64,000 nt of DNA from Lysinibacillus sp. ZYM-1 (lineage in GTDB: Bacteria > Bacillota > Bacilli > Bacillales_A > Planococcaceae). Location of the stretch: NCBI RefSeq assembly GCF_001308875.1, contig NZ_KQ465107.1:186001-250000 (forward strand), read 5' to 3'. The position numbers and the translations under genes are program-made. The notes under the pieces are model-generated. The model had not been told where the DNA came from and did no database searches. It worked only from the letters and a program-made list of their open reading frames with translations. Positions 295-39,256 of the stretch are shown piece after piece (position 1 is the first letter of the stretch; each line of letters begins with the position of its first letter).

Positions 295-391
295 ATCCAT
301 TTTAACCCTGTATTCCTATCAAAGTTGTAAACTATAAAAAAATATGCTAAAGTGTTTGTAATATTGTTTCTGAAAATTCTTATATCATATT

Positions 392-551
392 TCTTATCAA
401 GAGAGACGGAGGGATTGGCCCTATGAAGTCTCAGCAACCAGCTCAACAGTATGGTGCTAATTCCTATTGGCAAAATTTTTAGCCTTAAGATGAGAAGACG
501 AACTACCATTGTTTGATTCAGGGAGTCCTCTTCTATAGAGGACTCTTTTTT
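392..551 (+). promoter_or_regulatory. SAM-I (S-box) riboswitch with expression platform
   Basis: The leader matches the S-box consensus. P1 is formed by TCTTATC (392-398) with GATGAGA (489-495), followed by the conserved AGAGACGGAGGGA block at 401-413 and the GCAACC-type internal loop (AGCAACCAG, 433-441), and GGTGCTAATTCC at 453-464. A terminator hairpin follows at 523-551. In the family, SAM binding stabilises P1 and lets the terminator form, so the downstream gene is off when SAM is plentiful. The 3' side of P1 plus the following AGAAGA (493-498) can pair with TCTTCT at 529-534, a plausible antiterminator. It controls the gene at 585, 34 bp past the terminator. Confidence 0.93.
523..551 (+). 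terminator. S-box intrinsic terminator
   Basis: A 9-bp perfect stem, GAGTCCTCT (523-531) with AGAGGACTC (537-545), has a 5-nt loop and is followed by an uninterrupted T-run. It sits directly after the S-box aptamer and is its expression platform. Confidence 0.92.
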
Positions 552-36835: not shown

Positions 36836-37276
36836 CTAATGAATTAATGAAGCTCTTAAATTGTTTATGCCATTTTCTAAGTATCCTTTGAGACAAGTTA
36901 ATGTATAGATCCACCCTTCTTTTTGACCCATCATTTTCTTCACAATTTCCGGATCATGTGCGCTCAGTCCTGACTCCACTACCTCAATGATTGTCTGTCC
37001 CTGATATTCTTCAAGTGCGATGGTAACAATTGTCACTTCACCATGTTCCTCACCCCAAGAAAATACAATTTTTTTGTTGGCCTCTATTTCAAGTACGGAG
37101 ATAATTCCCTCTGCGCTATACTCCTCGTACCTCAATGTAATCCTTTTACCCTCCACCCATCTTTCAGAGCTGCTAGAGAACCAATAATGCCCGATTTCAG
37201 AAGGAGAAATAATGGCTTCAAAAACTTTATGGGCTGGCTGTTTGATTTTTAATTTAGTCGTCACATCCGTATTCAT
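36836..37276 (-). CDS. SRPBCC (AHSA1-type) domain protein
   Basis: About 146 residues of the START/SRPBCC fold: a first strand with KIKQPAHKVFEAIISPSEIGHYWF, a central region WVEGKRITLRYEEYSAEGIISVLEIEANKKIVFSWG, and the C-terminal helix QKEGWIYTLTCLKGYLENG. AHSA1-like members bind hydrophobic ligands or co-operate with Hsp90; most bacterial ones are of unknown function. AAGGATGATGATCG precedes ATG 37276 (37279 is possible). Confidence 0.85.
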   Translation of the reverse strand: MNTDVTTKLKIKQPAHKVFEAIISPSEIGHYWFSSSSERWVEGKRITLRYEEYSAEGIISVLEIEANKKIVFSWGEEHGEVTIVTIALEEYQGQTIIEVVESGLSAHDPEIVKKMMGQKEGWIYTLTCLKGYLENGINNLRASLIH

Positions 37277-37360
37277 CATCGATCATCATCCTTTTTATTG
37301 TGTTTATCTAGACATTCTCCAAATTTCCCCATTTACCTTTCTTATAATAAAAATTTAATA

Positions 37361-37403: not shown

Positions 37404-38852
37404 TTAAAATATCTTTTTATTTTCAATAGTAAACTGTATGTCTGCTACATTTTCAATAAAATTTTTATCATGTGACACAAAGATTATCGTACCCTCATAA
37501 GCCGTTATAAATTGCTCTAACGCTTCTAATGCTTGAATGTCTAAGAAGTTAGTTGGCTCATCCAATAACAGTATATTATAGTTCCCCAAAAACAGATAAC
37601 AAAGCTCAAGGCGTATCGCTTCACCACCGCTTAATGACTTCACACCCTTTTGTATATCCGTTCCTACAAATTGCATGGAACTTAAAACACTTCGTAAAAA
37701 GCCTTCCTCGTAATCAGAGCGATTTTTTAAAAATTGGAGGACTGTTTCCTCACTTTTAAATTGATAGCTCATTTGATGAAAATAGCCTATTTTAGCCTTA
37801 GGGGAAATAGTCAACCCATCCTCATTATTTGCAATATGTCGTAGTAATGTACTTTTTCCACAACCGTTACTACCTGTCAGCGCAATTTTTTTACCCAATG
37901 GTATTTGGAAGTTTATTTCATCTAATAATACTTTGCCTGGAACGTGTAAAGTGAATTGATCCGCCATAATCGGAAATTTATTGTGTAGTTCCAAAGCTTT
38001 CGATTGTCGGAAAATTATTTTTCTGTCTACCTGTAGCGCTTCTACTTTCTGAAGCTTCTCTATTCGATGTTCTATCGCTTTAGCTGCCCGTTGTACGCTT
38101 TTTTGACTCGTACCTTTGGACTTAGTCATAAACATGCGATTTGGTTTTGCATTTGCTTCTCTTTTTGACATGCTACCTGCTTGGGTAATTTTTTCAGCTT
38201 TTTTCATTTTTTCATCGACAGCTTTTTCAAGACGACATTTTTCTTTTAAGTATAAGTCATGAGCCTGACTCTGTTGATCTCGCTCTACCTGCTTTTGCCA
38301 AGCATAATTACTATAATTTCCAGAGTAAATATTTACTCTGCCCCCATCAACCTCCCAGATCGTTGTGACCAATTCATCTAGTACAGCACGATCATGGCTA
38401 ATTAGTACAAGCGCGCCATAATAATAACGTAATTCATCCATTAAAAACGAAATACCTTCTTGATCTAAATGTGTTGTTGGCTCATCAATGAGCAGTGCTT
38501 CCTCATAAAAAGAAAATAATTGAGCTAACTTCAATCTCGTTTGCTCGCCACCACTTAGTCCTTTAGAATATGAAGGAATAGCTAATTTCCCTAACAACTG
38601 AGCCTCTGCCTCTACTGACGTTGGTGCTTCCAATTGTTCAAAATATCCGAAATGAACATGACTATTTACCATCCCACTTGTCGGCTGAATCTTGCTAGCA
38701 AGTAATTTCATTAATGTACTTTTTCCAGCGCCATTTTTCCCAACGATACCGATCCGATCAAATTGGTGAATGGCCAATTTTTCAATGTTTAAAATCTCTT
38801 TATCTAAATAATTCACAATTACGTGATCTAATTCAAAGCAAACTTTTTCCAT
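37404..38852 (-). CDS. ABC-F family ribosomal protection-type protein (Msr/Vga-like)
   Basis: 482 residues, two ATP-binding domains and no membrane part, the layout of ABC-F proteins that dislodge ribosome-bound antibiotics. Domain 1: Walker A GKNGAGKST (38-46), LSGGEQTRLKLAQL, Walker B LLIDEPTTHLD. A charged linker follows at about 190-265 (VERDQQSQAHDLYLKEK to KSKGTSQKSVQRAAKAIEHRIEKLQK), then domain 2 with GSNGCGKST (about 330), LSGGEAIRLELCYLFL and LLLDEPTNFLD. The length is near Msr(A) (about 490) and well short of VmlR (about 550). The leader carries a macrolide-type stall peptide, so resistance to macrolides or related drugs is likely. ATG 38852 has GGGAGG upstream. Confidence 0.9.
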   Translation of the reverse strand: MEKVCFELDHVIVNYLDKEILNIEKLAIHQFDRIGIVGKNGAGKSTLMKLLASKIQPTSGMVNSHVHFGYFEQLEAPTSVEAEAQLLGKLAIPSYSKGLSGGEQTRLKLAQLFSFYEEALLIDEPTTHLDQEGISFLMDELRYYYGALVLISHDRAVLDELVTTIWEVDGGRVNIYSGNYSNYAWQKQVERDQQSQAHDLYLKEKCRLEKAVDEKMKKAEKITQAGSMSKREANAKPNRMFMTKSKGTSQKSVQRAAKAIEHRIEKLQKVEALQVDRKIIFRQSKALELHNKFPIMADQFTLHVPGKVLLDEINFQIPLGKKIALTGSNGCGKSTLLRHIANNEDGLTISPKAKIGYFHQMSYQFKSEETVLQFLKNRSDYEEGFLRSVLSSMQFVGTDIQKGVKSLSGGEAIRLELCYLFLGNYNILLLDEPTNFLDIQALEALEQFITAYEGTIIFVSHDKNFIENVADIQFTIENKKIF

Positions 38853-38881
38853 ATTACTACCTCCCGAAATTGAATCATTTC

Positions 38882-38930
38882 GTATCGATAGCTATGGTAT
38901 CGATACAAGCTTCTAGTGAAAGCTCGTATC
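38882..38930 (-). promoter_or_regulatory. Two mutually exclusive hairpins in front of the ABC-F gene
   Basis: On the transcript GATACGAGCTTTCACTAGAAGCTTGTATC-like arms (38930-38902) form one hairpin, and TATCGATAC (38898-38906) with GTATCGATA (38882-38890) form the next; they share the GATAC at 38902-38906 and cannot coexist. A third small hairpin, CGAAAT/ATTTCG (38864-38882), abuts the GGGAGG of the ABC-F gene. The first one contains the stop of leader peptide 2, so ribosome occupancy could choose between them (inference). Confidence 0.6.
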
Positions 38931-38952
38931 AAAAGAATAGTAGCATATGCAT
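38929..38952 (-). CDS. Leader peptide 2 (MHMLLFF)
   Basis: ATG CAT ATG CTA CTA TTC TTT TGA with AGGAGG eight bases upstream (38966-38961). It is a seven-residue micro-ORF immediately after the terminator at 38980-39007 and before the hairpin pair. A translated leader this short, placed at a hairpin, suggests a second level of translational control. No stall motif I can name. Confidence 0.55.
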   Translation of the reverse strand: MHMLLFF

Positions 38953-38979
38953 TATATATTCCTCCTGATTGGATAAATC

Positions 38980-39134
38980 AAAAAATCACAGACAATTTGC
39001 CTGTGATCCAAGTAACAGAGCTATATGATAAGAGTAAGCCTCACTAAATGATGGCGTAAACTCCCTTTCTTATGCGATGAAGATGATTAAAAAAGGACAG
39101 ACTATCCTGTATACTCTGGCTTCACAAACAGAGT
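38980..39134 (-). terminator. Attenuator terminators in the ABC-F leader
   Basis: Three hairpins in transcript order: ACTCTG/CAGAGT (39134-39113), AGGATAG/TCTGTCCT followed by U7 (39108-39089), and ATCACAG (39007-39001) / CTGTGAT (38991-38985) followed by U6 (38985-38980). The last is a full intrinsic terminator before the ABC-F gene and after leader peptide 1, the classic position for drug-inducible attenuation. Confidence 0.8.
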
Positions 39135-39150
39135 TTTTGACCCTATTCAG

Positions 39151-39195
39151 TTATTGGCTCAAAACGGTACAATGTAGTCTCATTAAATATGTCAT
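39151..39195 (-). CDS. Leader peptide 1 (MTYLMRLHCTVLSQ), ErmK/ErmD-type
   Basis: A 14-codon ORF behind AAGGAGG (39213-39207). The peptide has the same length as the ErmK/ErmD leader MTHSMRLRFPTLNQ and the same residues at M1, T2, M5-R6-L7, L12 and Q14. The MRL segment is the known erythromycin/ketolide-dependent stalling motif of that leader class. In ermK it acts by transcription attenuation. A promoter (39256-39229) precedes and terminators follow. Confidence 0.86.
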   Translation of the reverse strand: MTYLMRLHCTVLSQ

Positions 39196-39228
39196 TTTTT
39201 AATAATCCTCCTTAAAAGTGTTATGACT

Positions 39229-39256
39229 ATTATAAATATTTTTTCTAATTAGTCAA
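39229..39256 (-). promoter_or_regulatory. Promoter of the ABC-F leader transcript
   Basis: TTGACT (39256-39251), a 16-bp spacer and TATAAT (39234-39229) on the minus strand, 34 bp upstream of the leader peptide 1 start codon. Confidence 0.82.

Follow-up and report, generated by a model that had tools for sequence, protein, structure and literature searches.

Two stacked leader peptides and an ErmD/ErmK-type control region in front of an Msr-family ABC-F gene of Lysinibacillus

Leader peptides of the MRL type are already in print for several macrolide resistance genes. In Table 3 of PMC4335068, msr(A) is preceded by MTASMRLK, msr(C) by MTASMKLRFELLNNN and the mef genes of mef/mel(msr(D)) elements by MTASMRLR, and an MRL-type leader is likewise given for erm(K/D). 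A passage of the same paper finds no discernible homology between the regions of mef(E) and erm(K) outside the leader. For mefA/msrD, part of PMC10314930 describes two leaders, MefAL and MsrDL, that act in tandem, and excerpts of PMC9226507 and PMC10201436 describe transcription plus translation attenuation for VmlR and CplR. According to a portion of PMC8298421, Ser4 of ErmDL lies between the two erythromycin sugars and can be exchanged for Ala or Gly only, while stalling with telithromycin, but not with erythromycin, requires Arg8. In the literature examined, antibiotic-sensing leaders have so far been described gene by gene.

Here we analyzed a 64,000-nucleotide stretch of DNA from Lysinibacillus sp. 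ZYM-1 (the window), which contains an Msr-family ABC-F gene preceded by two leader peptides. We consider it likely that the region is a two-tier drug-inducible leader, with an ErmD/ErmK-type attenuator as tier 1 and the peptide MHMLLFF as tier 2. The first leader belongs to the known ErmD/ErmK type; what appears to be new is that two leaders stand in tandem and how widely the chassis is shared. The original prediction, which knew only the first leader, saw in transfer or convergent reuse of the same sensor with a different effector a potentially notable case of modular antibiotic sensing. Given the entries of PMC4335068, an MRL leader before an Msr-type ABC-F gene is not new in itself, and since MRL-type leaders before msr and mef are in print, the swap of effector alone is not new.

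The leader region of the msr gene

The msr gene product is predicted, from its family, to confer resistance to macrolides and streptogramin B. Its upstream control region of about 400 bases comprises a promoter, a Shine-Dalgarno sequence (SD), leader 1, a terminator with a T6 tail, leader 2 and stem-loops that run into the msr SD (Table 1). Positions 38853-39215 fold better than 100 of 100 shuffled sequences (z -4.7). A comparison of the leader region with Rfam gave no match even at E up to 1; the sole Rfam match of the window at gathering score is a SAM riboswitch at 391-496 (+). Directly downstream of msr lies an open reading frame (36836-37279, -), and a SRPBCC-family gene holds the same place in the plasmid copy of L. 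fusiformis.

Table 1. Positions of the msr gene and of the elements of its control region in the window
Feature	Position	Strand	Remarks
Sigma-A-type promoter, TTGACT / 16 nt / TATAAT	39229..39256	-	11/12 consensus matches
Shine-Dalgarno of leader 1, AAGGAGG	39207..39213	-	kept across orthologues
Helix H0, 5' arm, at the SD and start of leader 1	39195..39207	-	pairs with 39082-39094
Leader peptide 1 MTYLMRLHCTVLSQ, ErmD/ErmK type	39151..39195	-	ATG at 39195, 14 codons, stop 39153-39151
Hairpin H1, end of leader 1 to just past it	39135..39164	-	39164-39159 with 39140-39135
Hairpin H2 (CTCTG...CAGAG)	39114..39133	-	nearly invariant, no covariation
3' arm of H0, TTTTTTAATCATC	39082..39094	-	about 100 bases downstream of 5' arm
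Terminator 2 of the cassette, intrinsic, with T6 after the stem	38983..39009	-	terminator scan; 0.2 expected in shuffles
Shine-Dalgarno of leader 2, AGGAGG	38961..38966	-	
Leader peptide 2, MHMLLFF	38929..38952	-	SD-led short ORF; M..LLF[FY] in 13/13 close orthologues
Predicted translational attenuator	38857..38930	-	segments 1 38930-38920, 2 38912-38902, 3 38892-38877, 4 38870-38857 (msr SD in 4)
Msr-family ABC-F ribosomal protection gene	37404..38852	-	NF000168, 751 bits vs cut-off 680

Leader 1 with its promoter, SD and U6 terminator is real, as originally predicted. Promoter-like sites as such show no excess in the region (2 found vs 4.8 expected from shuffles). The peptide MTYLMRLHCTVLSQ is identical to the ErmD/K leader MTHSMRLRFPTLNQ at seven of 14 positions (M1 T2 M5 R6 L7 L12 Q14), the number that had been claimed. 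The MRL of the proposed stall segment is present, but the second Arg of R-x-R is lost (R8H): the complete Arg-x-Arg stall motif at positions 6-8 is absent from leader 1 of the window, which reads R-L-H, and the ErmDL-critical position 4 is occupied by Leu. Of two terminators proposed earlier, the U6 terminator was recovered by the terminator scan as the one terminator-like site in the region. The other is a 5-bp hairpin read by eye, GGATA-GTC-TGTCC before T6 at 39094-39089, at which the scan gave no call; this T6 is also part of the long-range helix H0.

In the proposed mechanism of tier 1, leader 1 would be translated through when no drug is present, the RNA fold would stop transcription at the U6 terminator, and the start region of leader 1 would later be closed by H0. 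In the presence of a macrolide, the presumed inducer, a ribosome stalled on leader 1 would prevent those pairings and RNA polymerase would read on. By comparison with ErmDL, stalling on MTYLMRLHCTVLSQ with erythromycin is expected to be weaker because of Leu4, and the response to ketolides is expected to be lost because of His8. Because both residues are at ErmDL-critical positions, the sensing by leader 1 of the window may be weakened or differently tuned, and the second tier looks intact.

The original prediction placed the ABC-F gene under the control of leader 1. Leader 1 does lie upstream of msr, but it is not the sole candidate for control because it is followed by another leader, missed earlier, for which a separate attenuator is predicted. 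The motif M..LLF[FY] stands directly upstream of ABC-F in 29 of 62 assessable cassette loci among the matches listed (msr first 18/39, mef-msr 8/8, rlmA-msr 2/13, mph-msr 1/2), after exclusion of two 'MIFY' hits (L070, L120) as false.

Attenuators of the ErmC type have four segments that form 1:2 and 3:4 stems, with the SD of the gene in 3:4 and an alternative 2:3 pairing. In 31 distinct sequences of the predicted attenuator (37 sites), the outer 3:4 stem holding the msr SD is paired in 31/31, and the share of paired cells is 84.6% for the inner 3:4 stem and 98.4% for the 1:2 stem; the stems are mostly invariant, with little covariation. As the outer 3:4 stem and hairpin H2 of tier 1 are both invariant, covariation is unable to support them. 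The alternative 2:3 pairing was read by eye in the sequence. With a ribosome placed on leader 2, the predicted accessibility of the msr SD/AUG rises only from 0.28 to 0.30-0.48 in the window, whereas the SD of the orthologue L019 is freed (0.41 to 0.59-0.70); the stalled-state folds of L018, L122 and L156 gave no rise in SD/AUG accessibility. A terminator scan of the sequence after leader 2 found none. In tier 2, a ribosome stalled on MHMLLFF would cover segment 1, segment 2 would pair with 3, and the msr SD would be freed from 3:4. Both tiers may still work in this strain.

A close msr orthologue (67-100% identity) was found in 13 of the 32 genomes of the genus, the window's own included, and a distant one (42-43%) in three. 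Leader 1 precedes 11 of these 13 close orthologues and leader 2 all 13, in the forms MHMLLFF, MYSLLFF, MGMLLFY and MMMLLFY. Beside MTYLMRLHCTVLSQ, leader 1 reads MTYSMRLRCTILSQ, MGYSMRLRFT[VF]LNQ (two), MTYSMRRRCPDLSQ, MTHAMRLRFQVLSQ, MTHAMRLRFPMLNQ (two), MTHSMKLRFPTLAQ, MTHSMKFRFPILV and MIPRLWSLTLNQ; MTHAMRLRFPMLNQ is closer to ErmDL, with 12/14 positions identical. We looked for leader 1 upstream of msr in all 13 and found none in L019 and L020, which keep leader 2 only. Leader 1 is therefore dispensable, and it could be that in the present strain it is decaying, with control by leader 2 alone and the likeness to ErmD a relic. Leu4 and His8 would fit such a decay, as would the orthologue L012, in which MTYSMRRRCPDLSQ goes together with a lost terminator U run (read from the sequence), as if both had decayed together. 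Against this, the promoter, SD, H1, H2, terminator and reading frame are all intact in the window, other Msr leaders are also changed at R8 (MRLH in L255, MRLY in L122 and L261), and erythromycin stalling tolerates most residues at ErmDL position 8, as part of PMC8298421 reports. We regard decay of leader 1 as unlikely and retain the two-tier reading.

A control region shared by different effectors

The leader region is not confined to msr genes. A blastn search matched it in 18 of 72,556 plasmid records, over the whole region or at least 34% of it, at 75-89% identity. Twelve of the 18 records were opened: the region heads erm(D) in one, a putative RNA methyltransferase plus msr(I) in two, mef(F) or an MFS gene plus msr(G) in three, a macrolide phosphotransferase in three and msr alone in two, and in one, which carries mef(F), it is cut by the record start. 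Identity to the erm(D) region of B. licheniformis pBL141-1 is 81.1% over 143 bp, and in L038 the same core goes with MTHSMRLRFPTLNQ. The leader region is also present, at 89% identity, in two plasmid records with the label Stenotrophomonas rhizophila (L046 = CP031730.1; CP065518.1); L046 shows a Lysinibacillus-like msr neighbourhood, and the label looks wrong or the DNA foreign. The core pattern had 0 matches in viral contigs, and 30-bp matches in two phage records were judged to be chance.

The core pattern, built from the noncoding part and not from the peptide, was used to scan genome contigs, with at least 119 stretches and at least 120 sites found. Among the 120 matches listed, an SD-led leader is present in 113, one (L124) is cut off and six have none. 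These six are exactly the six outside Bacillota (three Treponema and three other MAGs) and were therefore rejected as chance matches. The first gene among the 120 matches listed is ABC-F in 39, Erm in 24, RlmA-like in 19, Mph in 13, Mef in 10 and HflX in 2; 13 further sites, the six chance matches among them, are without a first-gene class. The leader precedes abc-F genes at 11/13 close genus orthologues, the window's own included, and ABC-F is the first gene of at least 39 cassette sites. Of the class representatives compared with NCBIfam, both Erm (broad family NF000499), HflX and Msr scored above the curated cut-off, and RlmA-like, Mef and Mph matched their own families below it. R/K-x-R/K occurs in 104 of the 113 leaders among the matches listed (sample 1).

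A covariance model of 35 cassettes (threshold E up to 1e-4) matched 74/261 genomes of the order and 9/299 of the phylum, and 79/398 evenly drawn genomes of the class Bacilli, in 44/145 genera. Seven of the phylum matches are outside the class: five have a leader and an effector of known kind (Mef, ABC-F twice, Mph, Mef-like), one has an HflX gene without recognised leader and one has nothing. Nine matches of the model precede Lmr(B)-like pumps. In five of these nine, from Lysinibacillus-group genomes, the leader is shortened to MTLRFPTLNQ (L200, L202, L231), MTLRFQTLNQ (L201) or MTLKFPTLNQ (L230); of the other four, three (L227, L228, L234) have an R/K-x-R/K leader and L266 is unclear. Three further matches precede dehydrogenase genes (L206, L222, L265). 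The leaders of L206 and L222 are MIDILSLNR and MIDILTLNR, without Arg-x-Arg, and that of L265 is another peptide; in L222 a Vga-like ABC-F gene comes next after the dehydrogenase gene.

HflX GTPase genes lie behind the cassette matches L138, L154, L268, L269, L273, L276, L282, L284, L288, L293 and L302. Most of these have a recognisable leader, which is not clear in L268 and L276; L138 adjoins mph, and L293 is a copy of L138. The genome of the window itself holds a second cassette (L199, G000:C40:1-2300), with the leader MTASIRLRFHITN before a Mef-like MFS gene.

Among the matches listed, the mean identity between cassettes with unlike effectors is 70-89%, depending on the class pair, over 132 columns from the SD to the 3' element, with maxima of 98.5% in Robertmurraya (ABC-F vs Mef) and 97% in Halalkalibacter (ABC-F vs Mph). 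Downstream of the leader stop codon, identity across classes averages 77-92% and reaches 100% (ABC-F vs Mph), and in every class pair this stretch is more alike than the whole cassette, among the matches listed. The leader region of about 130 nt is homologous at the DNA level in front of genes of the Erm, Msr, RlmA-like, Mph, Mef, HflX and Lmr(B)-like kinds. The relation to the ErmD/ErmK sensor claimed in the original prediction thus extends to the noncoding region, and the modular reuse with different effectors is wider than it had proposed. Leader 1 could also resemble ErmDL without shared ancestry, if both had converged on a peptide that stalls well. This alternative had been left open, and it would be favored by the Mef(E)L and ErmKL peptides, which are similar although a passage of PMC4335068 reports no discernible homology for the rest of their regions. 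Convergence, however, predicts loss of cross-class similarity outside the peptide codons, and the opposite was found; because the noncoding sequence is alike across effector classes, we favor homology and consider convergence highly improbable.

The RNA helices of the cassette are conserved. Among the matches listed, H0 has 90.5% of its cells paired in 114 sequences; its six slid versions reach 41-59%, and column shuffles average 88.8%, with 0/300 as high. For H1, 95.7% of cells are paired, vs 8-63% in slid versions, among the matches listed. Two-sided changes, in 11/17 pairs of H0 (shuffle mean 5.1; slid controls 6-11, so that this measure alone does not separate) and, among the matches listed, in 4/8 pairs of H1 (slid controls 0-4), were rejected as support, since slid controls equal the true helices at up to 11 and up to 4 pairs; H0 and H1 were therefore judged by the share of paired cells. 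The copy of H0 in the window has one mismatch, by eye. The 3' arm of H2 belongs to the search pattern, and its 5' arm lies outside. A terminator-like site occurs between core and effector in 100/101 loci among the matches listed, vs 45/505 block-shuffled regions, and the terminator-2 motif, among the matches listed, in 31/38 ABC-F, 14/17 RlmA, 7/10 Mef, 10/23 Erm, 3/11 Mph and 1/2 HflX loci. An antiterminator pairing of the H2 region with the 5' arm of the terminator is an uncertain possibility; it was above shuffles in only 40/100 loci among the matches listed.

On a cassette tree of the matches listed, in which 60/99 inner branches are open, the first effector changes 37 times, with a least possible number of 5 and a shuffled mean of 58.9. 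Some of them will reflect a first gene that was gained or lost within a shared operon. The cassette might be an old vertical inheritance in operons that gained or lost genes (mef, rlmA, mph as first gene), in which case 'sensor swapping' would be overstated. Many mixed operons headed by the cassette among the matches listed (RlmA+ABC-F 12, Mef+ABC-F 8, Mph with ABC-F 4) agree with such a history, as does the nearest cassette, which shares the effector in 68/107 cases among the matches listed vs 24.8 with shuffled labels. By contrast, Erm, Mph and HflX also occur as first genes where no msr was visible downstream (Erm alone in 21 loci and Mph alone in 11, among the matches listed), and although the tree is weakly resolved, its starred branches alone force at least 5 changes for ABC-F, 3 each for Erm and Mph, 2 each for Mef and RlmA, and one for HflX among the matches listed. 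A purely vertical history therefore appears rather unlikely, and the data suggest that the sensor is a reusable part.

Sensor residues and the effector

We compared ErmDL position 4, taken as the residue two places ahead of the motif's initial Arg or Lys, between effectors. In sample 1, among the matches listed, it is aromatic in 11/20 RlmA operons (10/19 before L060 was placed with RlmA by eye from a cut-off gene start), 4/20 Erm, 0/13 Mph, 1/38 ABC-F, 0/10 Mef and 0/2 HflX. Sample 2 kept 91/131 leaders, with 18 duplicates, 18 leaders without the +x+ motif and 4 without leader or effector dropped. Here the residue is aromatic in 7/14 Erm, 6/13 Mph, 4/6 RlmA, 3/6 HflX, 0/20 ABC-F, 0/4 Mef, 0/24 distant Mef, 0/3 Lmr(B)-like and 0/1 Vga-labelled.

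When Erm/Mph/RlmA is set against Msr/Mef, a contrast chosen after both samples had been seen and uncorrected for ancestry, aromatic residues number 15/53 vs 1/48 in sample 1 (among the matches listed) and 17/33 vs 0/48 in sample 2. The contrast of RlmA with all others, 10/19 vs 5/83 in sample 1 (among the matches listed), is weaker in sample 2 (4/6 vs 16/85, p 0.02), and on independent branches an aromatic position 4 and RlmA can be compared in two pairs only. About half of the RlmA leaders retain Ser or Ala at position 4, which argues against a strict code. Resistance through Msr and Mef is known for macrolides with 14- and 15-membered rings. RlmAII/TlrB works against tylosin, according to part of PMC6851288, and the same part reports that the B. 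subtilis tlrB leader MIIQFIRYR stalls with tylosin and gives no toeprint with erythromycin. This peptide has Phe at the place equivalent to ErmDL position 4.

As further variants, the leaders of L018, L100, L128, L160, L129 and L157 (MIPRLWSLTLNQ and relatives), which precede msr, mef and mph, have R-x-Trp instead of R-x-R; MTHFMRLRFPTLNQ is another natural leader.

As far as the aligned cassettes tell, the RNA chassis stays while the sensing residues vary. It is thus conceivable, though we hold it tentatively and at a little under even confidence, that the ErmD-type leader serves Bacilli as a portable chassis for sensors, repeatedly captured by unrelated resistance genes, with the drug-contacting residues re-edited for each effector. 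The split in aromatic residues at position 4, the shortened Lmr(B)-like leaders, the MIDIL[ST]LNR leaders and the Phe of the tlrB leader are all compatible with this proposal. If one switch heads a large share of the macrolide resistance genes of Bacilli and the residue follows the effector, these leaders would form a natural mutational series for drug recognition in the tunnel. Resistance genes of different biochemistry could then be predicted to share one induction logic, and the tandem leaders before msr would be an example of the possible stacking of two sensors in front of a single gene.

Comparison with described systems

In the open-licence literature searched, we found no statement of a DNA-homologous cassette common to Erm, Msr, Mph, Mef, RlmA and HflX. 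Among the closest described systems is the erm(K)/erm(D) attenuator of Bacillus licheniformis, of which both the leader peptide and the control-region DNA are homologous to those of the window, with a terminator before the gene in both. Its effector is a 23S methylase, whereas that of the window is an Msr ABC-F protein; the window adds L4 and H8 and has a second leader between terminator and gene.

Similarly, mefA/msrD (Mega) begins, according to part of PMC10314930, with the ErmDL-like MefAL and, as in the window, has a short hydrophobic leader immediately upstream of its msr gene. The mef gene lies between these leaders, and none lies between those of the window. MsrDL (MYLIFM) is followed by a terminator in the description given in that part of the paper, whereas MHMLLFF is followed by a predicted SD-sequestering hairpin, with no terminator found. 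In the mef(F)-msr(G) operons on plasmids of Macrococcoides and Lysinibacillus capsici, the same cassette comes first and a leader-2-like region precedes msr(G); here mef again separates the two leaders, which in the window are stacked.

The msr(A) and msr(C) genes resemble the window in having an MRL/MKL-type leader before an Msr ABC-F gene, a likeness drawn from the peptide only. For tlrB (RlmAII) of Bacillus subtilis, vmlR and cplR, the likeness is one of control: they are described as under uORF control with transcription and translation attenuation, as we propose for the window, although their leader peptides (MIIQFIRYR for tlrB, the consensus MIN and MR[I/M] for vmlR and cplR) are unlike those of the window.
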